Shown here: one piece after another, positions 2,635 to 21,728 of the stretch | How positions within the stretch are numbered: position 1 is the first letter of the stretch | How the letters are laid out: every line of letters starts with the position of its first letter | Source: Natrinema longum | GTDB taxonomy: Archaea > Halobacteriota > Halobacteria > Halobacteriales > Natrialbaceae | Direction: 5' to 3' | NCBI RefSeq assembly: GCF_017352095.1 | Contig: NZ_CP071463.1 | Span: forward strand, 3,472,001 to 3,536,000 | Length of the DNA stretch: 64,000 nucleotides | The notes under the pieces: model-generated | Seen by the model: only the letters and a program-made list of their open reading frames with translations | Database searches by the model: none | What the model was told of the DNA's origin: nothing | Made by a program: the position numbers and the translations under genes

Positions 2635-3543
2635 ATGACGATCGGCGTTATCGGGGGCAGCGGCATCTACGACGCACTGCCACTCGAGAACACGCGGACG
2701 GAAGCGATTTCGACGCCGTACGGCGAGCCAAGCGACGTGGTTACCCTCGGCGAACTGGCCGGGCGGGACGTCGCGTTCCTCCCGCGTCACGGCGAGGATC
2801 ACCAGCATCCGCCGACCGACGCGTCCTATCGCGCGAACATCTACGCGCTCAAGTCGGTCGGGGTCGACCGGGTCATCGCAACGAACGCGGTCGGGAGCCT
2901 GCGAGAGGAGTTGCCACCCCGGACGCTGGTCGTTCCCGACCAGATCTTCGATCGGACCAAACACCGTTCGCCGACCTTCTTCGGCGACGGCATGGTCGTC
3001 CACATGGGCTTTGCCGAGCCGTACTGTCCGGCGATGGTCGATCACCTCGCCGAATCGGCCCGCAGCGTGCTCCGCTCGGAGACCCACACGAGCGGCCACC
3101 CCGAGAGCCACGACGCGACGGCCGACGAGACGAAAATCCAAGAGAGCGGCACCTACGTCTGCATCGAAGGCCCGCAGTTCTCCACGAAGGCCGAAAGCGA
3201 GTTCTATCGCGACCAGGGCTGGGACATCGTCGGGATGACCGCCATCCCCGAGGCCAAACTCGCCCGCGAGGCCGAGTTGAGCTACGCCACGGTGGCCGGC
3301 GTCACCGACTACGACGTCTGGAAAGATGACAGCGAAGTCTCCCTCGAGGAGGTCCTCGAGAACGCCGCGGCCAACGAGGACGCGATCAACACGGTCGTCG
3401 AACACGCCATCAGGACGATGCCCGACGACTTCGAGAGCGAGGCCTGGAGCGCCCTCGAAGGGACGATCAACACGCCACAGGAAGCGATCCCCGAAGAGAC
3501 CCTCGAGCGCGTCGATCTGCTGGCCGGCGAGTATCTGGAGTAA
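2635..3543 (+). CDS. mtnP: S-methyl-5'-thioadenosine phosphorylase
   Basis: This 302-residue enzyme belongs to the PNP/MTAP family. It cleaves methylthioadenosine with phosphate to adenine and 5-methylthioribose-1-phosphate, in methionine and polyamine-linked salvage. Visible signatures are IGVIGGSGIYD at the N-terminus, the phosphate-site FLPRHGEDH, ATNAVGSL, and IEGPQFSTKAES in the base-binding region. A hydrophilic insertion (about residues 148-165, HTSGHPESHDAT) before the last motif is a haloarchaeal-style addition. A TTTAGG element about 27 bases upstream fits leaderless transcription from this ATG. Specificity for MTA over inosine or guanosine is inferred from family resemblance. Confidence 0.88.
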   Translation: MTIGVIGGSGIYDALPLENTRTEAISTPYGEPSDVVTLGELAGRDVAFLPRHGEDHQHPPTDASYRANIYALKSVGVDRVIATNAVGSLREELPPRTLVVPDQIFDRTKHRSPTFFGDGMVVHMGFAEPYCPAMVDHLAESARSVLRSETHTSGHPESHDATADETKIQESGTYVCIEGPQFSTKAESEFYRDQGWDIVGMTAIPEAKLAREAELSYATVAGVTDYDVWKDDSEVSLEEVLENAAANEDAINTVVEHAIRTMPDDFESEAWSALEGTINTPQEAIPEETLERVDLLAGEYLE

Positions 3544-3564
3544 CGCGGGCGTCGAGTCCCACCG

Positions 3565-4086
3565 TCACGACCGCTCCGACTCGAGATCGGAGGACGGAGC
3601 GGAGTCCGGCGATTCCCGGGCGGTCGGGTCGCCGGCCGTCGTCGGGTCGCGTTCACCGTCTCTGCCCGATTCGAACGGATCGCGCGGATCGACCGCACAC
3701 GCCTCGCAGTAGACGTTCTCTCCCGCTTCCGGAACCGCAATCGTGGTTCCGAACAGTACGCGCCGTTCCTCGTAGCGGCGGTACTCGCCGCCCTCGGCCG
3801 GCCGCCCGCACTCGCCGCAGTCGACGGTCGCCGAGTCGACGTGGCCGGTTCGAACCTCCCGCATCGTGCCGAAAGTGTAAACGGGGTCGCTCGAGGCTTC
3901 GGCCGCCTGCCAGCAGACGACGAGCCCGACGAGAAAGAGCGCGATGCCGACGAAGGGAGCACCGAGCATCGCCGGCACGAACAGCAGCGATACGAGAATC
4001 CAGCCCCAGACGAACACGAACCCGGCGTAATCGGCCACGCGTCGGAGTCCGCTCCCGACGCTCCGTTGCCGGTCCGGTCGTGTCAT
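3565..4086 (-). CDS. zinc-ribbon membrane protein
   Basis: This is a 173-residue hypothetical protein. Two hydrophobic helices (YAGFVFVWGWILVSLLF and FVGIALFLVGLVVCW) are followed by a soluble part with two paired cysteines (CGEC and, about 40 residues later, CEAC), a likely zinc ribbon, and a disordered Ser/Asp-rich tail. I chose ATG 4086 over an in-frame ATG at 4113 because a TTATTT element centred near 4111 puts the transcript start at about 4086. It lies just after scpA on the same strand and converges on mtnP with 21 bases between the stops. Function unknown. Confidence 0.7.
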   Translation of the reverse strand: MTRPDRQRSVGSGLRRVADYAGFVFVWGWILVSLLFVPAMLGAPFVGIALFLVGLVVCWQAAEASSDPVYTFGTMREVRTGHVDSATVDCGECGRPAEGGEYRRYEERRVLFGTTIAVPEAGENVYCEACAVDPRDPFESGRDGERDPTTAGDPTARESPDSAPSSDLESERS

Positions 4087-4175
4087 TCGTGTAATCGATT
4101 TTCGAACGAACAAATAACCCTTTCGACGCGAGCACGCGACGGACCCGCGTCCCGTCGGACGTCGTCCGGACCGAG

Positions 4176-5414
4176 TCAGTCGGCGATCGCTTCGCCCGGG
4201 TCCGCCTCGACCGCGACCTGCTGTACCCAGAGATCGCCGAACAGTTCGTCCTGCTCGAGCGTGACACGGCCCCGGTGGGCCAAGAAGAGCAAGGCGAGGT
4301 AGGTCATCACGCGCGAGCCACCGACCTCGTCGATCTCGGCGTACAACACCTCGTCGCGTCCCTGTTCGTAGTGGGTCTCGAGTTCGCGTTCGACGTCGTC
4401 GATGACCGCCTCGATGTCCTCCTCGTGGGTCGTATGGGTGACGTCGTCGCTGGTCGGCTCGTCGTCGACCCGCAGATCGTCACCGGAGTGGTAGTTCAAC
4501 TCCTGGACGCCGCGATCGTACCCCGTCGGCGAGCCGCTCGTGTCGTAACTCCGGGACTCCTTCCACCAGCTGTCGCGTTCGGCGGTCCGGAGCTCGCGAA
4601 CGAGTTCGTCCAGGGTCTCGGGCTTCCCGCGGGCGTGTTTGCGCTCGAGGCGGCGCTCCATCTCTTCCTCGAGGTTCTCGACGGGGTCGAACCCCGGTGG
4701 GTGCTCCCTCCCGTCGTCGCCGTCCGGATCCGTCGGTCCGTCGTCGGCGAAGGGCGCTTCCCACGGTGGGAGTTCCTCTTGGTCGGGTTCCTCGACCGCG
4801 AACAGCTCGTCGCTTTTCATCCGCAGGAGGACGCTCGCGTAGAACAGCGCCCGGCCGGAGGTCCGCAGGTCGACCTCGTCGATCGCCTCGAGGAACGTGT
4901 CCGTCACGTCGACGATGTCGATGTCCCACGGGTCGATCTCGCCGTCTTTGGCGAGTTGGACGAGCAGTTCGACCGGTTCGACTTCCGGCTCCCCGTCGTC
5001 GTCCGCAGGGTCGCCCGTCTCGACGCCCGTGAACTCGAGGACCGACTCCCCCGCCTCGGGGTCACGGCCGTCAGCACCGCCCTCGTTCGGGTCGGAATCC
5101 GGGCTCGAGTCGCCCGGCCGCTCGCGATCCTCGTGTCCGGCGATGTGCAGCGGAATCTCGTCGCCGCCGTCGGTTCGGAGGGTTCGACCGGGGGCGTGTG
5201 ATTCAGCGCTTCGCGACTCGTTTCGCTCACGGGTCGCTTCGCTCCCCGCTTGCGTTCTCGAGGAGCCCTGCGTCGCCGTTGGCTCCTCAGGCTCATCGCC
5301 GTCTCGCGGGTCGCTTTGCTCCCCGTCGTCTCGCGGCTCTGCCGCTCGACTGTTCGCGGAACTCCGTTCCGCGCTACTCGACGTTTCGGAGCCGCTACGC
5401 GGCTCCCTAGTCAT
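4176..5414 (-). CDS. scpA: segregation and condensation protein A
   Basis: ScpA is the kleisin subunit that bridges SMC dimers in chromosome condensation. The conserved part starts at about residue 145 (EPVELLVQLAKDGEIDPWDIDI) and runs through the LLRMKSDELF helix to a C-terminal winged-helix region. The ATG at 5414 overlaps the smc stop codon (5407-5409), so the two are translationally coupled; an in-frame ATG 18 bases upstream would lie inside smc. The first 140 or so residues are disordered, rich in Ser, Glu, Arg and Asp, and encoded partly by short palindromes (5330-5406). Total length, 412, exceeds the usual roughly 250-300. No scpB is present in the window. Confidence 0.9.
   Translation of the reverse strand: MTREPRSGSETSSSAERSSANSRAAEPRDDGEQSDPRDGDEPEEPTATQGSSRTQAGSEATRERNESRSAESHAPGRTLRTDGGDEIPLHIAGHEDRERPGDSSPDSDPNEGGADGRDPEAGESVLEFTGVETGDPADDDGEPEVEPVELLVQLAKDGEIDPWDIDIVDVTDTFLEAIDEVDLRTSGRALFYASVLLRMKSDELFAVEEPDQEELPPWEAPFADDGPTDPDGDDGREHPPGFDPVENLEEEMERRLERKHARGKPETLDELVRELRTAERDSWWKESRSYDTSGSPTGYDRGVQELNYHSGDDLRVDDEPTSDDVTHTTHEEDIEAVIDDVERELETHYEQGRDEVLYAEIDEVGGSRVMTYLALLFLAHRGRVTLEQDELFGDLWVQQVAVEADPGEAIAD
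5333..5406. repeat. cluster of short palindromes inside scpA 5' end
   Basis: Three palindromes lie close together: GCGG..CCGC at 5333-5345, CGCGGAA/TTCCGCG at 5355-5373, and a perfect 8-bp stem GGAGCCGC/GCGGCTCC with a TAC triloop at 5388-5406. They sit in the segment coding for the disordered ScpA N-terminus. Similar short GC palindromes fill the intergenic stretch at about 24895-25090, so they look like a genome-wide haloarchaeal mini-palindrome type that here became coding sequence. Confidence 0.6.
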
Positions 5415-8400
5415 CAGCAGGCACCTCCCCACTACTCAGATCGATGCCGGTCACCGCACTCACGTTGTCCTGTTGCATCGTCACGCCGATCGCCCGCTCG
5501 GAGCGATCGAGCATGGCCGAGCGGTGGGAGACGACGACGAACTGAGCGTCGCCGGCGAGTTCCTCGACCATCTCGCCGACCCGCTCGGCGTTGACGGCGT
5601 CGAGGAAGGCGTCGATCTCGTCGAGCGCGTAGAAGGGAGCCGGGTTGTGCCGCTGGATGGCGAAGATGAAAGCCAGCGCGGTCAGCGACTTCTCGCCGCC
5701 GGACATCGCGTCCAGCCGCTGGATCGGCTTGTCGCCCGGCTGAGCCTTCATCGTCAGTCCGCCGTCGAACGGATCGGCCTCGTTCTCGAGGTGGAGCGTC
5801 CCCGTCCCTTCGGAGAGCTTCTCGAAGATTTCCGTGAAGTGGGACGCGATCGCATCGTAGGCGTCCATGAACGTCCGCTTCTTCTGGGTCTCGTATTGCT
5901 CGATCCGATCGCGGATGCCGTCGGCCTCCTCGACTAACGTCTCCCGTCCCTCCTCGAGTTCCTCGAGGTCGCTTCGGACCTCGTCGTACTCGTCGATCGC
6001 GAGCATGTTCACCGGCTCCATCGCCTCCATGTCGGCCCCCAGAAGGTCGATCATCTCGCGGACGGTCTCGTGGTCGGGCACGTCTTCGGGATCGTAGTCG
6101 CCGACTTCCGACTCCAGCGATTCGATCTCCCACTCGAGGCTGTTGGCGCGCTCGCTCGCGTCCTCGAGTTTGCTCTCGACGGTGTTGACCCGGTCTTGTT
6201 GCTGATCGCGTGCCGTCCTGGCGTCGGAGAGTTCCTCTTTGAGGTCGCTCCGTTCGTCTTTCAGCTCCGTCAACTCCGCTTCCAGTTCCTCGACGGCCTC
6301 GCGCTTTGCCGCCAGTTCCTCGCGCTTCGTCTCGATCTCCGCCTCGTACTCTTCGATCCGATCCTCGTGTTCGGCCGTGCGGTTCTGGGCCGCCTCGATG
6401 TCGTCGTGGAGGTCCTCGATGGCGTCCTCGGCGTACTCCTTCTCGAGGTTCAGTTCGTTGAGGTCGTTGTCGAGTTCCTGAATCCGCTCTTCGCGGTCGT
6501 CGATCTCGGCCTCGAGCGTCTCGATCCGATCGGTCAGTTCGGGGATCTTCGAGTCGGCGAGTTCGGTCTCGAGGTCCTCGATCTCAGCCTCGAGTTCCTC
6601 GACCGCTTCGGTCTTGGCGTCGATCTCCGCGGCAATCTCGTTCATCCGCTCGTCGACGGAGTCGCGTTCCTCGCGGAGCTCCTCGAGATCGGTCTCGAGG
6701 TCCTCGATCTCCGCCTCGAGGGCCTCGCGTTTCTCGGCTATCCCCTCGAGTTCGGACTCGATCGAGCGGACTTCGTCGGCCGCGTCGCTCTTGCGGTCGC
6801 GGGCGTCGTCGAGTCGCTCCTCGACGCTGCGGACTTCCTCGCGCAGCGATTCGCGTTCCTCCTGGAGCTCCGTGATCCGTTTGGCGACGCGCTCGAGTTG
6901 CCCCTCGCCGCCGCCGGTAAAGGAGTAGCGCGAACCGCCGCCGGAGCCGCCGGTCATCGCGCCGCTCTTCTCGACTAAGTCGCCGTCGAGGGTGACCATC
7001 CGGTAGTCGCCCATGTACGAGCGGGCGGTCTCGATGTCCTCGACGACCAGCGTGTCCCCGAGGACGTAGGAGAAAACGCCGGCGTACTCCCGATCGAAGT
7101 CGACGAGGTTGTACGCGAAGTCGACGATCCCCGGATCGCTGGGGGCCGATGGCAGCCGGCGCTGGCTCATGTCCGTCAGCGGCAGGAAGGTCGCTCGACC
7201 CGCGTTTCGGGACTTGAGATGCTCGATGCACTGCTGGCCGATAACGTCGTCGTCGACGACCACGTTCGCCAGCCGACCCCCCGCGGCGGTCTCACAGGCG
7301 ACCGCGTACTCGCCGGCGACGGTCCCCAGCTGTGCGACCGCGCCGTGAACGCCGTCGATTCCCGAGTTGAGGATCGTCGTCACCGCACGACCGAACGAGG
7401 AGTCGCCGCTCTCGCCGGCGTTGGCCTCGAGTTCGGCGTACTCCTGTTGTTTGGCCTGGATCTCGTCGTCGAGATCGTCGACGTCCGACTGGAGCCTGCG
7501 TTTCTGGGCTTTCAGGTCGTCGACGACCTCCGCGATGTTCTGGCGATTCCGTTCGGCCTTCTCGAGTTCCCGCTCGAGGTCGCTTCGCTGGCTCTCGATC
7601 TCCGGAATCGTTTCGCGTTTCTCTTCGATCGTCGCCTCTTTCTCGCTGATCGCGTTCGAGCGTCGGCGAGCGTCGTCGAGCAGGCGGTCTTGCTCGCGCT
7701 GGAGGTCGTTTTTCTCGGTCTTGGCCGCCTCGAGATCGTCCTTTCGCTCGGCGAGTTCGGCCTTGAGTTCGTCGAACTCGGTGTCGACGGCCTCGATTTC
7801 GGCCTCGAGGTCGTCGCGGTCGGCCTCGCGTTCCTGGATCTCGCTTTTTACCTGTGCCTTCTCGAGTTTGTGTTCGCGAATCTCGTCGTCGAGATCGTCG
7901 ATCGTCTCTTGCTTGCGATCGATCTCGACGAACGCCTCGCGTCGCTCGGACTCGGCGTCCTCGATCGCCTCCTCGCTGGCTTCGATCTTGTCCTCGAGCC
8001 GCGAGATGTCGCCTTTGACCTCCTCGATCTCGCTTTTGATCCGGAGCTGTTCGTCCTCGCCCTTGCGCTCGATCTCGGCGTTCAAGTCCTCCAGGTCCTC
8101 CTGGAGGCGGACGACCGCCCCTTCGCGTTCGTCGAGTTCCCGCTGGAGTTCCCGGAGTTCGGCCTCGAGATCGTCGACCTCGGCCTCGGCGGACTCGAGT
8201 TCCTCGCGTTTCTCCTCGAGTTCGCTGGCCTTCTTGTAGCCCTCGTATTCGTCTTTCTCGCGGCGGAGCCGGCGGTAGCGCATTGCCTCCCGGCGCTCGT
8301 CGGCGAGTTGCTCGAGGCGGTCGCGTTTCTCCTCGATGCGGAGTTCGGCCTCGTCGATCCGCTCTTGAACGGTCTCGAGTTCCTCGAAGGCGTCTTCCTT

Positions 8401-8979
8401 CTTGGCGTCGAACTCCGCGACCCCCGCGATCTCGTCGATGATCTCCCGGCGGGCGTGGGGCGTCATGTTGATGATCTCGGTCACGTCGCCCTGCATGACG
8501 ACGTTGTATCCTTCCGGCGTGATCCCCGCCTGTGCGAGCAGGTCCTGGATGTCCGAGAGGTTGACCGAGCGGTCGTTCAGGTAGTAGTAGGAGTAGTAGT
8601 TGTCCTCGGTCTCCTTGACCCGACGGCGGATGCGGATCTCGTCGACGTCGCCGACGTCCTCGCTGCCGGCGGCGTTGACGACCTGTGATCGCTCGAGGGT
8701 GCCCTCGGAGTTGTCGAGAACGACCTCGACGGTCGCCTCGCGGGGGCCACTGGAGGTGTCGCCGCCCTCGTGACCGGGGTTGTAGATGAGATCGGTCAGT
8801 TTCTCGGCCCGAATCCCGCGGGTCCGGGCCAGTCCGAGCGCGAAGAGGACGGCGTCGATGATGTTCGATTTGCCGGAGCCGTTCGGGCCCGTGACGACGG
8901 TGAAATCCTCGTAGAACGGTATCTTCGTCTTTCTACCGAAGCTCTTGAAATCGTCGAGAACGATCGACTTGATGTACAT
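5407..8979 (-). CDS. smc: chromosome segregation protein SMC
   Basis: This 1190-residue protein has full SMC architecture. It has an N-terminal ATPase half with Walker A GPNGSGKSN (about residues 32-40), a long coiled coil, a hinge at about 520-680 with Gly-rich stretches (GGSGGGSRYSFTGGG), and a second coiled coil. The C-terminal half carries the signature SGGEKSLTALAF and Walker B FYALDEIDAFLD near residues 1090-1130. SMC dimers with ScpA entrap and organise chromosomal DNA. It is transcribed after a small coiled-coil gene (88-base gap) and overlaps scpA by 8 bases. GAAAGGAGC directly before the ATG resembles a ribosome site but is almost too close to use. Confidence 0.97.
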   Translation of the reverse strand: MYIKSIVLDDFKSFGRKTKIPFYEDFTVVTGPNGSGKSNIIDAVLFALGLARTRGIRAEKLTDLIYNPGHEGGDTSSGPREATVEVVLDNSEGTLERSQVVNAAGSEDVGDVDEIRIRRRVKETEDNYYSYYYLNDRSVNLSDIQDLLAQAGITPEGYNVVMQGDVTEIINMTPHARREIIDEIAGVAEFDAKKEDAFEELETVQERIDEAELRIEEKRDRLEQLADERREAMRYRRLRREKDEYEGYKKASELEEKREELESAEAEVDDLEAELRELQRELDEREGAVVRLQEDLEDLNAEIERKGEDEQLRIKSEIEEVKGDISRLEDKIEASEEAIEDAESERREAFVEIDRKQETIDDLDDEIREHKLEKAQVKSEIQEREADRDDLEAEIEAVDTEFDELKAELAERKDDLEAAKTEKNDLQREQDRLLDDARRRSNAISEKEATIEEKRETIPEIESQRSDLERELEKAERNRQNIAEVVDDLKAQKRRLQSDVDDLDDEIQAKQQEYAELEANAGESGDSSFGRAVTTILNSGIDGVHGAVAQLGTVAGEYAVACETAAGGRLANVVVDDDVIGQQCIEHLKSRNAGRATFLPLTDMSQRRLPSAPSDPGIVDFAYNLVDFDREYAGVFSYVLGDTLVVEDIETARSYMGDYRMVTLDGDLVEKSGAMTGGSGGGSRYSFTGGGEGQLERVAKRITELQEERESLREEVRSVEERLDDARDRKSDAADEVRSIESELEGIAEKREALEAEIEDLETDLEELREERDSVDERMNEIAAEIDAKTEAVEELEAEIEDLETELADSKIPELTDRIETLEAEIDDREERIQELDNDLNELNLEKEYAEDAIEDLHDDIEAAQNRTAEHEDRIEEYEAEIETKREELAAKREAVEELEAELTELKDERSDLKEELSDARTARDQQQDRVNTVESKLEDASERANSLEWEIESLESEVGDYDPEDVPDHETVREMIDLLGADMEAMEPVNMLAIDEYDEVRSDLEELEEGRETLVEEADGIRDRIEQYETQKKRTFMDAYDAIASHFTEIFEKLSEGTGTLHLENEADPFDGGLTMKAQPGDKPIQRLDAMSGGEKSLTALAFIFAIQRHNPAPFYALDEIDAFLDAVNAERVGEMVEELAGDAQFVVVSHRSAMLDRSERAIGVTMQQDNVSAVTGIDLSSGEVPADD

Positions 8980-9066
8980 GCTCCTTTCGAACCCTCCGGA
9001 CCGCCAGTAGCCGTCGAAGCGAGCGCCGACCGCGGTCCACGGTCCCGCCCCTCGATTCCGCCGCAG

Positions 9067-9381
9067 TTATGCAACGATAATGTCGTCGCTACCTGAGTCT
9101 TCCGCTTCGTCACCGGCAGTCTCGTCGACGTCCTCGGCGTCGGCCGCCGCTTCGGCGACTTCGTCGGGTTCGGCTTCGGGCGTTTCGTCCTCCTCGACCG
9201 CGGTCGTCCTCGTCTCCTCGCTACGTCGCTCGGGGACACGCGTCGGCGTCTCCGCATCGAGCTCGGCCTCGAGGACGCGGATCCGCTCTTTCGCTTCGAT
9301 AAGTTCGTCCGTCAGCCCCTCTACCGTCGATTCGAGTTCCGCAACCGTCGATTCCAGTTGTTCGACACGGTTGTTCGACAT
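9067..9381 (-). CDS. small coiled-coil protein upstream of smc
   Basis: This 104-residue protein consists of an N-terminal heptad-rich coiled coil (VEQLESTVAELESTVEGL, about residues 5-45) and a highly acidic, low-complexity tail rich in Glu, Asp and Ala that ends in DDIIVA. ATG 9381 is preferred over an in-frame ATG 27 bases upstream because a TTTATG element near 9408 is about 27 bases before it. It lies 88 bases before smc on the same strand. Position suggests a chromosome-structure accessory role, but nothing in the sequence proves it. Confidence 0.7.
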   Translation of the reverse strand: MSNNRVEQLESTVAELESTVEGLTDELIEAKERIRVLEAELDAETPTRVPERRSEETRTTAVEEDETPEAEPDEVAEAAADAEDVDETAGDEAEDSGSDDIIVA

Positions 9382-9520
9382 ATCAACTAGGGACCGGTCC
9401 GGCCACATAAACGTACGTCAGACGACTATAATATATCATACAGTTCAGCGGCCGACGGCGGCGGCCAGCGACCGGTTCCCGGTCTGTGGGTGGCCCGCGC
9501 CGCCACACGGCGGGACCGAT

Positions 9521-16473: not shown

Positions 16474-16896
16474 ATGTCCCAGTCAACTCCCGCCCCCGAT
16501 ACGGACGAGTCAGTCGTCGACGCGTACGTGTTCGACGTTCGAATCGTCGAGATCGACGCGATCGACGGCGACGACTCGCGGTACCGATTCGAGGCACCGA
16601 ACCACACCGAGGTCACGTTCGACGACCTCGAGGATGCTCGCCGCTACGCGGACGTCTACTTCGACGTCAACGGCTTCGTCGAGGAGAACACCGGTGAACG
16701 CGGCGTCCCACCCGAAATCGTCCAGGCCGGCAAGGATACCCTCGCTGCGTACCTCACCACGTGCCCCTGGGCGGACGGCAACTGGGTCGCGTCGTTCTAC
16801 GGGACGACCCCTGCGGAGATCGACCGGTACTGTTCGTGGGTCCGTGACCGGGCCGACGAGATACGAACGCAGATCGAGGAACGCGACTTCGAGTAG
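16474..16896 (+). CDS. haloarchaeal conserved hypothetical protein
   Basis: This is a 140-residue acidic, soluble protein. A predicted beta-rich part (VVDAYVFDVRIVEID, YRFEAPNHTEVTF) is followed by helices (DLEDARRYADVYFDVNGFVEEN and EIDRYCSWVRDRADEIRTQIEE). I recognise no catalytic motif and do not assign a function. It starts about 120 bases after the histidine kinase on the same strand, with an AT-rich segment between that probably carries its own promoter. Confidence 0.7.
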   Translation: MSQSTPAPDTDESVVDAYVFDVRIVEIDAIDGDDSRYRFEAPNHTEVTFDDLEDARRYADVYFDVNGFVEENTGERGVPPEIVQAGKDTLAAYLTTCPWADGNWVASFYGTTPAEIDRYCSWVRDRADEIRTQIEERDFE

Positions 16897-17213: not shown

Positions 17214-19835
17214 ATGGTCGAATTTACCAGGCGGACGCTGATGGCAACATCAGCGGCGGCTGCGATCGGCGTTGGAGCGATCGGGACGGCAACCGCGGCT
17301 GACGCCGATACTCCAGGTGCACCGACGATACGCGGGGACCTCCAGCGGCTCGCGACGACGGCCCGCGGTGCCGAAGTGACTGGCCCGTTCGTCTTCGAGA
17401 ACGGCGAAGTACTGTTCAGCCTGCAGCATCCGAGCCGGGACAATCCGGAGCCGTACGATACGGCGGCCGTCGGGGTCCTCGCCGGCCACCAGTTCGAGTT
17501 CAACGGCAAGAACGACGAGTTCGACGCACTCGAGGCTCCCCGGTCTGCTGACGCACAGGGACGAGTCCAGGTCGCTGGCGGTGAGTACGACATCCTCGTC
17601 CAGGAAGGGGTGCCGATCGCCGGCGGCGACGGGAAGTGGGGCCACCCGGAGACGCCCGACGGCACGGATATCGCCGCGTTCGACGGCAGTCGGTACGGTG
17701 ACGTCGGCTACAACCCCGACATGAACTTCTTCGTCCCGACCGACGATGAGGGGCTCGAGGGGTATCTGTTTACGAACAACGAGACGAGTCCCGGAAGCAT
17801 CACGCGCACGCCGATCAGCCGCGACGAGGACGGCTGGGAGGCCGACCTCGAGAACGCGCTGAACCTCGAGAACCTCGCGGCCTTTCGTGAAATCGGCGGC
17901 ACCCGGATCAACTGTTATGGCGATCTGAGCCCCTGGGAGACGCCGATGTCCGCCGAGGAAGACTACGGCCACCCGCGCGTATCGGGGCCGGCGACGGTGA
18001 GCGACGTCGTCGACGCCGAAAGCGGCGTCGGCGTTCGTGGCGCGGCAGCGTTCTGGAACCGTCCAAACCCGACCGAGATCGGGAACTCGATCGAGGAACT
18101 GTTCGAGGAGAGTTGGTACCCACAGGGAACGTGGGCGCTGGCGGGCCTCGAGATGCAGGCCTACTATCTCGGGGCCGAGCCGGTCGATCAGGACGGCGAG
18201 ACGAACACGACCGATCCCATCGGCGACGGCTATCCGAACCGGTATCGATACGGGCACATCGTCGAGATTACCGAGCCGACGAGTGCGGAGCCGACCCCGG
18301 TCAAACACCACGCCATGGGTCGGGCCGCCTTCGAGTGCCCCGAGTTCATGCCCGACGAGCGGACCGTGTATCTCGCTTCCGATGGCGCGAACAAGGGTCT
18401 CTACAAGTTCGTCGCCGAGGAGCCGATTCCGAGCTACGACGACCGGATGGACGTCCGCGGGACGCTGTTTGCCGCCCGCGTGACTAACGAGGACGCTGCG
18501 AAGAACCGGCCACCCGCCGACGTCGACCTCGAGATCGAGTGGGTGGAACTGGGCACCGCGAGCAACGCCGAGGTCGAGTCCTGGATCGCCGACTACGACG
18601 ATCTCACGCAGGTCGATTACCTCGAGACCCACGCCGAGACCGACTGGGCCGAGGACCTCGAGACCGCACTGGCGGAAGCCGACGAGGAAGTCGCGATCAA
18701 CGGCAACCAGGATTACATCGCAGATGCGGACATCCTCGAGTGGGCCACACAGTACGCAGAGGAGGGTCCCAATGGGGTCGACGAGGATCTCCGTCGGGTC
18801 CCGTTCCTCGAGACGCGGGCCGCAGCGAAAGCGATCGGTGCCAGCGTCGAGTTCCGCAAGGCGGAGGGAATCGACTCGCTCGACGACGCCGAACCCGGCG
18901 ATTTCCTCTACGTCGGTATCTCGGAACTCAACGATGGCATGGCCGACGACGCGGGAGACGTTCGGATGGAACGCGTCGACGGCGGTGTCGTCTACCGGGC
19001 CGAACTGGAGTCCGGCTACGACGTCTCGACGCTCGAGCCGGTCGTCGTCGGCCCGGATGCGACCGATCGCGAGTCGGTCGTCGACGCCGCGCCGATCAAC
19101 GTCGACAACGTGATGGTCCTCGACGACGGCCGCGTCCTCCTCTGTGAGGACAAGGGAAGTTTCGGTCGCTCGTATCCCAACGACGCGCTGTGGGTCTACG
19201 AGCCGCCGACATCGCTTCACGTCGACTCCGTCGCGATCAGCCAGGCGACGAGCGGCGAAGCAGACCTGACGCTCTCGTCGGTCCCGAACGGGCTCGCCGG
19301 CGGTCGAGTCTCCGTCTCCCTCGAGCACACGGACGTCGCCGAAATCGTGGGCGCGAGCTATCACGACGCGCTCGAACTCACCGCCGGACCGACGATCAGC
19401 GACGACGGATCGACGGTCGAGTTCCGATTCGCAGACATCGACGACGAGATCGAACCCGGTACGACGGACGTCACGCTGGCGACCGTCGAACTCGAGGGCG
19501 TCGGCGGTGGAACGACAGACATCGCGGCCGACGTACGATCCCTGGACGACGACGAGGGGACTGCGATCGAAGCCCAGCCTCGGCCCGGCGTGGTCGTCAC
19601 TGGCCCGCCGCCGGTCGGCGGAGGCGGTACCGGTGGACGGGCTCCGACCGACCCCGATGGCGACGGGACGTTCGAGGACATCAACGGGAACGGTCGGCTG
19701 GACTACGACGACATCGTCCTCCTCTTCGAACACCTCGACGACGAGTCGATCACGCTCAACGTCGACGCCTACGACTTCAACGACAACGGCCGCATCGACT
19801 ACGACGACATCGACGAACTGTACGACGAACTGTGA
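17214..19835 (+). CDS. secreted PhoX-type alkaline phosphatase with cohesin-like and dockerin modules
   Basis: This is an 873-residue exported protein. An N-terminal Tat-type signal (FTRRTLMATSAAAAIGVGAIG, ending TATAAD) leads into a PhoX/DUF839 beta-propeller phosphatase region at about residues 40-655 (PETPDGTDIAAFDGSRYGDVG, VKHHAMGRAAFECPEF, LLCEDKGSFGRS). PhoX enzymes are Ca2+- and Fe-dependent phosphomonoesterases that release phosphate from organic compounds. A cohesin-like beta-sandwich follows at about 667-790 and a Pro/Gly linker at about 795-812. A dockerin module closes the protein, with calcium loops DINGNGRLDYDD (from residue 822) and DFNDNGRIDYDD (from residue 854). Dockerin modules are unusual on phosphatases. 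The stop overlaps the start of the next gene. Confidence 0.88.
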   Translation: MVEFTRRTLMATSAAAAIGVGAIGTATAADADTPGAPTIRGDLQRLATTARGAEVTGPFVFENGEVLFSLQHPSRDNPEPYDTAAVGVLAGHQFEFNGKNDEFDALEAPRSADAQGRVQVAGGEYDILVQEGVPIAGGDGKWGHPETPDGTDIAAFDGSRYGDVGYNPDMNFFVPTDDEGLEGYLFTNNETSPGSITRTPISRDEDGWEADLENALNLENLAAFREIGGTRINCYGDLSPWETPMSAEEDYGHPRVSGPATVSDVVDAESGVGVRGAAAFWNRPNPTEIGNSIEELFEESWYPQGTWALAGLEMQAYYLGAEPVDQDGETNTTDPIGDGYPNRYRYGHIVEITEPTSAEPTPVKHHAMGRAAFECPEFMPDERTVYLASDGANKGLYKFVAEEPIPSYDDRMDVRGTLFAARVTNEDAAKNRPPADVDLEIEWVELGTASNAEVESWIADYDDLTQVDYLETHAETDWAEDLETALAEADEEVAINGNQDYIADADILEWATQYAEEGPNGVDEDLRRVPFLETRAAAKAIGASVEFRKAEGIDSLDDAEPGDFLYVGISELNDGMADDAGDVRMERVDGGVVYRAELESGYDVSTLEPVVVGPDATDRESVVDAAPINVDNVMVLDDGRVLLCEDKGSFGRSYPNDALWVYEPPTSLHVDSVAISQATSGEADLTLSSVPNGLAGGRVSVSLEHTDVAEIVGASYHDALELTAGPTISDDGSTVEFRFADIDDEIEPGTTDVTLATVELEGVGGGTTDIAADVRSLDDDEGTAIEAQPRPGVVVTGPPPVGGGGTGGRAPTDPDGDGTFEDINGNGRLDYDDIVLLFEHLDDESITLNVDAYDFNDNGRIDYDDIDELYDEL

Positions 19836-20554
19836 GCGATAGATCGCCACGACATCGGGTCGGCGCGCTCGCCGTCGCCCTCGCGGTCGGGCTTGCGGTC
19901 GGGCTCCCGGTCGCGGTCACGGCCGCGAGCGGTGGGGCGGCTCTCGGCATCGGAGCAACCACGGAGACCGGAAGCAGTCTCGTCGTCGCCGACGCGACCG
20001 TCGAACCCGGAGCGACCGCGACCCATCGCATCGCGCTCACCGACGCCCCGGACGGCCTCGCGGGCTTCGAGATCACGCTCGAGCTATCGACCGACGCTGC
20101 GACGGTCTCGAACGCCAGCTATCCCGACACGTACGGGAAGACGACCGATCCCGTCGTAAGCGACGACGGACAGTCGGTAACCGTCGAGGCTGCCGACCTC
20201 ACCGACGAGGTGACTCCCGGTGCGACCGACGTCACGCTCGCGACGGTCGCAGTGACCGGAACCGACACCGGCTCGGCGACGCTCGAGATCACGGAGCTGC
20301 AAGTCGACGCGGACGGCGGGTCCCGCATCGACCCCGTGCTCGAGGCCGGAACGCTCACCGTCGACGACGGGACACCGGCGTCCCCAGAGAGTGGGAACGG
20401 CGACGCCGACGGCGGTACCGATTCCAGTGATGGGAGTGGCTCGGGTGGCTCGAACCGGGGTTCGGGTTCGGACTCGGTCTCCGGCTTCGAGGGCGGGACC
20501 GCGCTCGTCGCGATCGGCCTCCTCGCGGCAGCCCTGCTCGCGCGGTCCCGGTGA
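19832..20554 (+). CDS. membrane-anchored cohesin-like surface protein
   Basis: This 240-residue protein starts at a GTG that overlaps the phosphatase stop (GTGA), so the pair is translationally coupled. An N-terminal signal (VGALAVALAVGLAVGLPVAV) is followed by a cohesin-like module at about residues 40-165. It aligns with the one inside the phosphatase: DGLAGFEITLEL, SDDGQSVTVE and PGATDVTLATV match NGLAGGRVSVSL, SDDGSTVEFR and PGTTDVTLATV. A Ser/Gly/Asp linker then leads to a C-terminal hydrophobic helix and basic end (GGTALVAIGLLAAALLARSR) resembling a PGF-CTERM archaeosortase signal, though with SGFE rather than PGFG. It is probably anchored at the outer face of the membrane or in the S-layer and may bind the phosphatase dockerin. 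Confidence 0.8.
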   Translation: MSDRSPRHRVGALAVALAVGLAVGLPVAVTAASGGAALGIGATTETGSSLVVADATVEPGATATHRIALTDAPDGLAGFEITLELSTDAATVSNASYPDTYGKTTDPVVSDDGQSVTVEAADLTDEVTPGATDVTLATVAVTGTDTGSATLEITELQVDADGGSRIDPVLEAGTLTVDDGTPASPESGNGDADGGTDSSDGSGSGGSNRGSGSDSVSGFEGGTALVAIGLLAAALLARSR

Positions 20555-20717: not shown

Positions 20718-21728
20718 GTGCTCGAAATCGTCACGCTACTCCTCATGGCGGCCGTCGGGACGGCGGTCGTGTGGAAAGGGAGTTCCTGGCTCGAGGATTC
20801 GGCGAACAAGCTCGCGGTCGCGTACGGGCTGCCGGCGGTCGTTCAGGGTGCCGTCATCGCCGCGGTCGGCTCGAGTGCGCCGGAACTGGCGAGCGTGTTG
20901 CTCGCGACGCTGGTACACGGGGAGTTCGAACTCGGGGTCGGCTCGATCGTCGGCTCGGCGGTGTTCAACCTCCTCGTGATTCCGGGGCTCGCGGTCGTCG
21001 TCGCCGGTGGCGTGGTCGACACGACGCGCGAACTGGTCTACAAGGAGTCGCTGTTTTACATGCTCGCGGTCGCCGCCCTGCTGTTGACGTTCTCGCTGGC
21101 GGTCATCTACAACCCCGTCGACGAGGCCGGCGTCCGCATCGGGGGTTCCGTCTCGAGACCGCTCGCCCTGTTCCCGCTCGCCCTCTACGGCCTCTACCTG
21201 TTCACGCAGTACTTGGACGCCGCGGAGTCGGAGCAGCAGGCGGACGGGACGATTCCGCTCGCGCGCACGTGGTTCTGGTTCGTCGTCGGGCTGGCGTTCA
21301 TCGTCGTCGGCGTGGAAGCGCTCGTTCGGGCGGCGATCGGCCTCGGGGACGCATTCGGGACCCCCTCCTTTCTCTGGGGGATGACCGTCGTCGCCGCCGG
21401 CTCGAGTCTGCCGGACACGTTCGTCAGCCTGACGGCCGCGCGGGCCGACCGACCGACGGTCACGCTGGCGAACGTCCTGGGCAGCAACACGTTCGACCTG
21501 CTCGTGGCCGTGCCGGTCGGCGTCGTCGTCAAGGGGGCACTGACGGTCAACTTCGCCAACATCGTTCCGATGATGGGGTTTCTCGTCCTGGCGACGGTCG
21601 CGTTCTTCGCGATTTCCCGAACCGGGATGGCCCTCACCAGACGCGAGGGGTGGCTGCTCTTGGGACTGTACGGGGCGTTCGTCTGCTGGCTGCTCGTCGA
21701 GAGCCTCGGCGTCGTCAGCGTTCTCTGA
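20718..21728 (+). CDS. Na+/Ca2+ exchanger (CaCA family)
   Basis: This 336-residue membrane carrier has about ten helices and the two inverted alpha-repeats of the CaCA family: SSAPELASVLLATL with VGSIVGSAVFNLL, and GSSLPDTFVSLTAA with NVLGSNTFDLLV. It would exchange Ca2+ (or K+) for Na+ or H+ across the membrane. The start is GTG 20718. It has both a Shine-Dalgarno match (AAGGAGGT, 20707-20714) and a TTTATT element (about 20688) that would start the transcript almost at the GTG. It follows the cohesin-like gene by 163 bases on the same strand. The link to calcium-binding dockerins is suggestive only. Confidence 0.88.
   Translation: MLEIVTLLLMAAVGTAVVWKGSSWLEDSANKLAVAYGLPAVVQGAVIAAVGSSAPELASVLLATLVHGEFELGVGSIVGSAVFNLLVIPGLAVVVAGGVVDTTRELVYKESLFYMLAVAALLLTFSLAVIYNPVDEAGVRIGGSVSRPLALFPLALYGLYLFTQYLDAAESEQQADGTIPLARTWFWFVVGLAFIVVGVEALVRAAIGLGDAFGTPSFLWGMTVVAAGSSLPDTFVSLTAARADRPTVTLANVLGSNTFDLLVAVPVGVVVKGALTVNFANIVPMMGFLVLATVAFFAISRTGMALTRREGWLLLGLYGAFVCWLLVESLGVVSVL

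Follow-up and report, generated by a model that had tools for sequence, protein, structure and literature searches.

The nearest biochemical precedent for the locus described here, and a direct archaeal one, is the pair ORF2375/ORF2376 of Archaeoglobus fulgidus, in which the dockerin of ORF2375 binds the cohesin of ORF2376 strongly and specifically (as cited in the available part of PMC9705933). Archaeal cohesins and dockerins are also described from ANME archaea, where scaffoldin-like proteins carry up to five cohesins and a dockerin according to the accessible sections of PMC9012536 (Chadwick 2022). The role of non-cellulosomal archaeal cohesins and dockerins has been called unknown (PMC5244752). 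Papers on haloarchaeal glycosidases (including PMC10963439 and PMC13260240) mention dockerins and, in the sections available, not cohesins; the two papers named read the dockerin as substrate-binding. No description of haloarchaeal cohesins was found in the open-access literature, subscription papers being outside the scope of the search.

The window analysed in this study is a stretch of 64,000 nucleotides from Natrinema longum (contig NZ_CP071463.1, positions 3,472,001 to 3,536,000). It contains the gene of a PhoX-type phosphatase with a C-terminal dockerin, followed by a gene, here called ORF2, for a cohesin protein with a putative membrane anchor. We propose, with a probability of about 0.72, that PhoX and ORF2 constitute a two-gene cohesin-dockerin surface-display unit.

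Organisation of the phosphatase gene

The phosphatase gene (17214–19835, plus strand, as are all features of the pair) encodes 873 amino acids and matches the PhoX profile PF05787 with an E-value of 1.1e-23 and 84.6 bits, which is above the cut-off of 24. Its product starts with a twin-arginine (Tat) signal peptide, TRRTLMATSAAAAIGVGAIGTATA (17214–17297), as read from the sequence. The PhoX catalytic domain comprises residues 216–649 (17859–19160) and is also similar to the PhoX structure 3zwu in the PDB (E-value 4e-6).

Two modules follow the catalytic domain. The first, at residues of about 661–797 (19194–19604), is a cohesin according to its AlphaFold2 model and the Foldseek and VIA matches of the latter, and is referred to as the cis cohesin. 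An earlier note on this DNA had listed residues 667–790 for checking only; they correspond to this second cohesin, which was absent from the model put forward there. The other module is the dockerin at residues 812–873 (19647–19832), identified by alignment and by the Dockerin_1 matches of its family members. It contains two F-hand calcium loops, DINGNGRLDYDD (residues 822–833, 19677–19712) and DFNDNGRIDYDD (residues 854–865, 19773–19808). In the genome of the window, PhoX occurs once, Dockerin_1 matches once and cohesins of this family number two, all of them within the PhoX/ORF2 pair.

ORF2 and its probable membrane anchor

ORF2 (19832–20554) encodes 240 amino acids, as supported by its translation and orthologues. 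It overlaps the phosphatase gene by the four bases GTGA (19832–19835), which combine the start codon of ORF2 with the stop codon of the phosphatase. Overlap or short spacing of the two genes is preserved in 24 relatives. The ORF2 product features an N-terminal Sec-type signal peptide (19832–19927), the trans cohesin module (19958–20371), an acidic Ser/Gly/Asp linker (20375–20479) and a C-terminal anchor composed of SGF, a hydrophobic stretch and ARSR (20480–20551); signal peptide and linker were read from the sequence. The anchor is PGF-CTERM-like, with S replacing P. The overlap had been pointed out in the earlier note, along with a signal peptide, a cohesin-like module, a Ser/Gly linker and a hydrophobic C-terminal segment, and all of these are present.

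PGF is found in 17 of 25 ORF2 tails, and the tail of one orthologue (L019) matches TIGR04126 above the cut-off. The ORF2 of the window gave no match to TIGR04126 and reads SGF, not PGF, and hence falls outside the PGF-CTERM substrates of archaeosortase A. Archaeosortase A (ArtA) is encoded in the genome of the window. Lipid anchoring by ArtA is doubtful for this protein because of the SGF motif in place of PGF; membrane anchoring is probably achieved via the hydrophobic C-terminal segment.

Identity of the cohesin modules

The cis and trans modules share 36% identity (E-value 4e-16), indicating that they are homologous. The AlphaFold2 model of the cis module has a pLDDT of about 90 and was aligned by VIA to 6kgd_A with a Z-score of 16.0 and an rmsd of 2.0 over 132 positions. 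For the trans module, modelled from the close orthologue L003 (pLDDT about 96), a Z-score of 15.8 and an rmsd of 2.3 over 130 positions were obtained. Cohesins lead the Foldseek and VIA match lists of both the cis module and the L003 model. For either module, the archaeal cohesin 2xdh ranks among the top structural matches (Z-score 15.5), with about 11–16% identity in the alignments. Each VIA table lists one entry that is not named as a cohesin, 9ifr, with a Z-score of about 11.

Neither of the two modules of the window matches the Pfam Cohesin profile (PF00963), and a sequence search with ORF2 against the PDB and Pfam yielded no usable match. A homologous module in the haloarchaeal locus L088, which belongs to the same family by profile (4e-30), matches Pfam Cohesin over its full length with 31.4 bits, above the cut-off of 24.1. 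The assignment of the ORF2 module relies on the predicted fold and on L088 as bridge homologue. Both modules, cis and trans, are cohesins by predicted fold. The cohesin identity suspected earlier for the beta modules is borne out by these folds, with Z-scores of about 16. At the level of Pfam profiles it is backed by the L088 homologue and not by the modules of the window itself.

Dockerin and calcium loops

The layout of a type I dockerin, recognised earlier from two calcium loops 32 residues apart, is confirmed, and the loop starts have this spacing in 29 of 29 aligned dockerins. Dockerin_1 (PF00404) matches all 29 aligned dockerin-bearing PhoX C-termini (best E-value 2.1e-7); the tail of the window itself scores 18.3 bits, which is below the cut-off of 22.9.

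Such weak Pfam scores of the dockerin and of both cohesins would suit a purely structural role, in which the dockerin is a calcium-binding tail, the cohesin modules are spacers and the genes have remained together through ancestry. We regard this explanation as highly improbable. Both calcium loops are conserved across the ORF2-bearing loci, ORF2 is missing wherever the dockerin is absent among the PhoX loci listed, and the modules recur with unrelated cargo.

The dockerin was modelled with modest confidence, with a pLDDT of about 69 in a read-through fusion with ORF2 and of about 55 in the cis construct. Docking was sought in the fusion, for which in-frame relatives were used and the stop codon was written as Gly; this is an artificial chain that cannot show binding, and its pTM of 0.53 is low because of the disordered linker. 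A PDB search with profile A1 was discarded; it mostly returned EF-hand proteins, matched through the dockerin. In a PhoX clade that kept the dockerin and has no ORF2 (L017, L018, L020 and L032), the first calcium repeat has altered residues.

Co-occurrence of dockerin and ORF2

One set consisted of 37 loci, 36 of them with PhoX. A dockerin and a cis module are found together in 28 of the 36, and ORF2 lies directly downstream in 24 of these 28, where it starts between 3 bases before and about 110 bases after the PhoX stop codon. The eight PhoX loci without dockerin, namely L023, L024, L026, L027, L028, L030, L033 and L036, all lack ORF2 (0/8). A wider survey covered 391 genomes of the class and gave 150 PhoX loci among the matches listed. 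Dockerin and ORF2 were observed in 51 of these, the dockerin only in 9, neither in 90 and ORF2 only in 0; shared ancestry is uncorrected in these counts, and the value of 90 is an upper bound, since dockerin matches were counted only to about 1e-24 and diverged dockerins can be missed. Across genomes, ORF2 depends on the presence of the dockerin.

The operon coupling assumed in the earlier note is supported, with ORF2 downstream in 51 of 60 dockerin-bearing PhoX loci listed. A phosphatase often found without ORF2 would have argued against the proposed pair; among the loci listed, the phosphatases without ORF2 mostly have no dockerin either. In five of the nine dockerin-only loci, the gene is the leading copy in a tandem of two PhoX genes. 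According to the PhoX tree, the dockerin state switched on four independent occasions, and ORF2 moved likewise in almost all pairings (3.8 of 4 on average). The independent-pairs sign test yielded a p-value of 0.125 with n = 4 pairs, which are too few for significance.

The phosphatase also has a potential partner within its own chain. The cis cohesin is present in 28 of 28 dockerin-bearing PhoX loci, and partial Mantel tests gave the same co-variation of the dockerin with the cis (0.54) as with the trans cohesin (0.54). The PhoX-cohesin-dockerin arrangement is kept without ORF2 in four sampled genomes, and in G254, G276 and G215, where a dockerin-bearing PhoX occurs without ORF2, there is one genomic cohesin match, presumably the cis module. 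These observations would fit a dockerin that mainly binds the phosphatase-type cohesin, either within the molecule or head-to-tail between molecules, so that dimers or chains arise which ORF2 caps or tethers. We consider this rather unlikely. Elsewhere, dockerin proteins without a cis cohesin adjoin cohesin proteins, locus L024 retains the cis cohesin without dockerin and without ORF2, and the dockerin model in the cis construct is poor. Mantel tests were rejected as a way to tell cis from trans pairing, as the equal values give no separation. Binding of the dockerin to the ORF2 cohesin remains our preferred reading. As originally proposed, this pairing stands in so far as both modules exist; it is not simply one-to-one, because the phosphatase has a cohesin of its own.

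Several features of the surroundings were recorded as well. At L007 (about 3050–9519), two tandem PhoX-cohesin-dockerin genes have one common ORF2, and similar tandem pairs were found in G117, G180, G196, G295 and G356. In the window, an ORF of 140 residues (16474–16896) without Pfam match over the cut-off is located upstream of PhoX; a homologue is present in the flanks of 36 of 36 PhoX loci, either upstream or downstream. ORF2 is followed on the same strand by a Na+/Ca2+ exchanger gene (20718–21728, plus strand). A functional tie of the exchanger to the PhoX/ORF2 pair was considered and dropped; it is found in the flank of 7 of 24 units.

Cohesins and dockerins on other cargo

The pair had been thought to be phosphatase-specific, a view that has to be abandoned. 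Related dockerins occur on 5'-nucleotidases, PhoD, a nuclease-like protein, members of GH5, GH9, GH10 and GH43, and others. A cohesin together with a dockerin is also found on 5'-nucleotidase, PhoD and choice-of-anchor I proteins, and at L073–L077 large proteins with both modules (Pfam SNase, ABC_transp_aux) are followed by a cohesin anchor. At L080, L092, L087 and L091, dockerin proteins lacking a cis cohesin adjoin cohesin proteins; the reverse gene order also occurs. The recurrence of the arrangement with unrelated cargo suggests that the trans cohesin may serve the dockerins as a common partner. Phosphate-releasing cargo recurs at L082, L086 and L106, where both modules are attached to 5'-nucleotidase and PhoD phosphatase proteins.

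Archaea had further been credited with lone modules. Some haloarchaea go beyond this: their scaffoldin-like proteins carry between 3 and 8 cohesins, and some with 5–8 lie amid dockerin-bearing glycosidases. At L093 (4605–13000), a scaffoldin that has a dockerin besides its five cohesins lies between a cohesin anchor and two dockerin-bearing GH5 proteins, all encoded in a row on one strand. At L138, a GH5 protein of 1768 residues with 8 cohesin matches is followed by a cohesin protein of 258 residues with a PGF tail; none of these 8 cohesins (0/8) reached Pfam Cohesin at an E-value of 0.001. The genome of the window, with two cohesin modules and one dockerin match, lacks the multi-cohesin scaffoldin and several dockerin enzymes by which a cellulosome is recognised.

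L138 (2718–18422) and L139 form a cellulosome-like cluster with many dockerin-bearing GH5, GH10 and PL14 proteins. Many of the protein lengths (637, 610, 258, 759, 741, 577, 815, 592, 835 and 490) match the mannan-degradation cluster of Natronoglomus mannanivorans in the available part of PMC10963439. Since predicted lengths equal published ones, the genome of L138/L139 (G344) probably belongs to Natronoglomus mannanivorans or a close relative. In the same part of that paper, a protein of 1,755 residues is termed GH5/CBM6 and the one of 258 residues S-layer glycoprotein. L095 and L096 feature a protein with three cohesins and a dockerin; the dockerin proteins in its vicinity contain domains of the types ThuA, glucose/sorbosone dehydrogenase and 3-keto-disaccharide hydrolase. 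Another genome of the species of the window (G202) has 9 dockerin matches, compared to 1 in the genome of the window, and a cluster (L102) in which GH5 and rhamnogalacturonan lyase proteins carry dockerins.

On another explanation, the dockerin and cohesin modules bind substrate or cell-surface material and not each other. This is how type I dockerins of haloarchaea are interpreted, without experiments in the accessible parts, in PMC10963439 and PMC13260240. We give this explanation very little weight, as cohesins and dockerins are families known to bind one another, and adjacent cohesin anchors and multi-cohesin proteins exist. Chances are about even that a cohesin-dockerin assembly system extends across the haloarchaeal lineage, mostly missed by profile libraries and ranging from one-enzyme anchors to cellulosome-like clusters. 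Within such a system, the cis cohesin could let PhoX phosphatases chain head-to-tail on the anchor.

Proposed mechanism

In the proposed display unit, the Tat pathway would export the phosphatase with its C-terminal cohesin and dockerin, whereas ORF2 would be exported by the Sec pathway and retained in the membrane by its C-terminal segment. The flexible acidic linker would extend the single ORF2 cohesin outward, where the phosphatase dockerin, with two calcium ions bound, would dock. ORF2 thereby probably holds the phosphatase at the cell surface like a clip; the retention of the enzyme would follow from the binding of the dockerin to the ORF2 cohesin, and released phosphate could then be taken up by the cell. 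The main uncertainty of this mechanism is the cis cohesin, since it accompanies the PhoX dockerin in every case and its co-variation with that dockerin equals that of the trans cohesin. The cis cohesin may compete for the dockerin.

If the proposal is true, it provides a concrete function for non-cellulosomal archaeal cohesins and dockerins, namely non-covalent display of an enzyme at the surface. A cohesin family that is barely detected by Pfam would also alter the substrate-binding reading of haloarchaeal dockerins. With only two proteins involved, the PhoX/ORF2 pair lends itself to a simple test of binding, and it might yield protein clips that tolerate salt.

Comparison with known systems

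The catalytic family is shared with the PhoX alkaline phosphatase 3zwu; of the two, only the enzyme of the window is described with an added C-terminal cohesin and dockerin. The C-terminus of ORF2 resembles that of the Haloferax archaeosortase A substrates with PGF-CTERM (PMC7157517) in its hydrophobic segment and basic end. PGF itself is common to those substrates and most ORF2 orthologues, while the window has SGF.

With the type I pairs of bacterial cellulosomes (CipA, OlpA; 1ohz, 3ul4), the unit has in common the cohesin fold, the two F-hand calcium loops and an anchored cohesin. It differs from them in consisting of one enzyme and one anchor, without multi-cohesin scaffoldin or glycosidase, and in an enzyme that bears its own cohesin. 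As in PhoX/ORF2, the dockerin and cohesin of Archaeoglobus fulgidus are located in consecutively numbered ORFs; this pair (cohesin structure 2xdh) is not haloarchaeal, and the available part of the source mentions no phosphatase domain. In ANME archaea, substrate-binding proteins of transporters are reported as common cargo, and the accessible sections of PMC9012536 describe no phosphatase unit. Taken together, archaeal cohesin-dockerin pairs and the scaffoldin-like proteins of ANME archaea are already known, and the PhoX/ORF2 unit is a variation on them.
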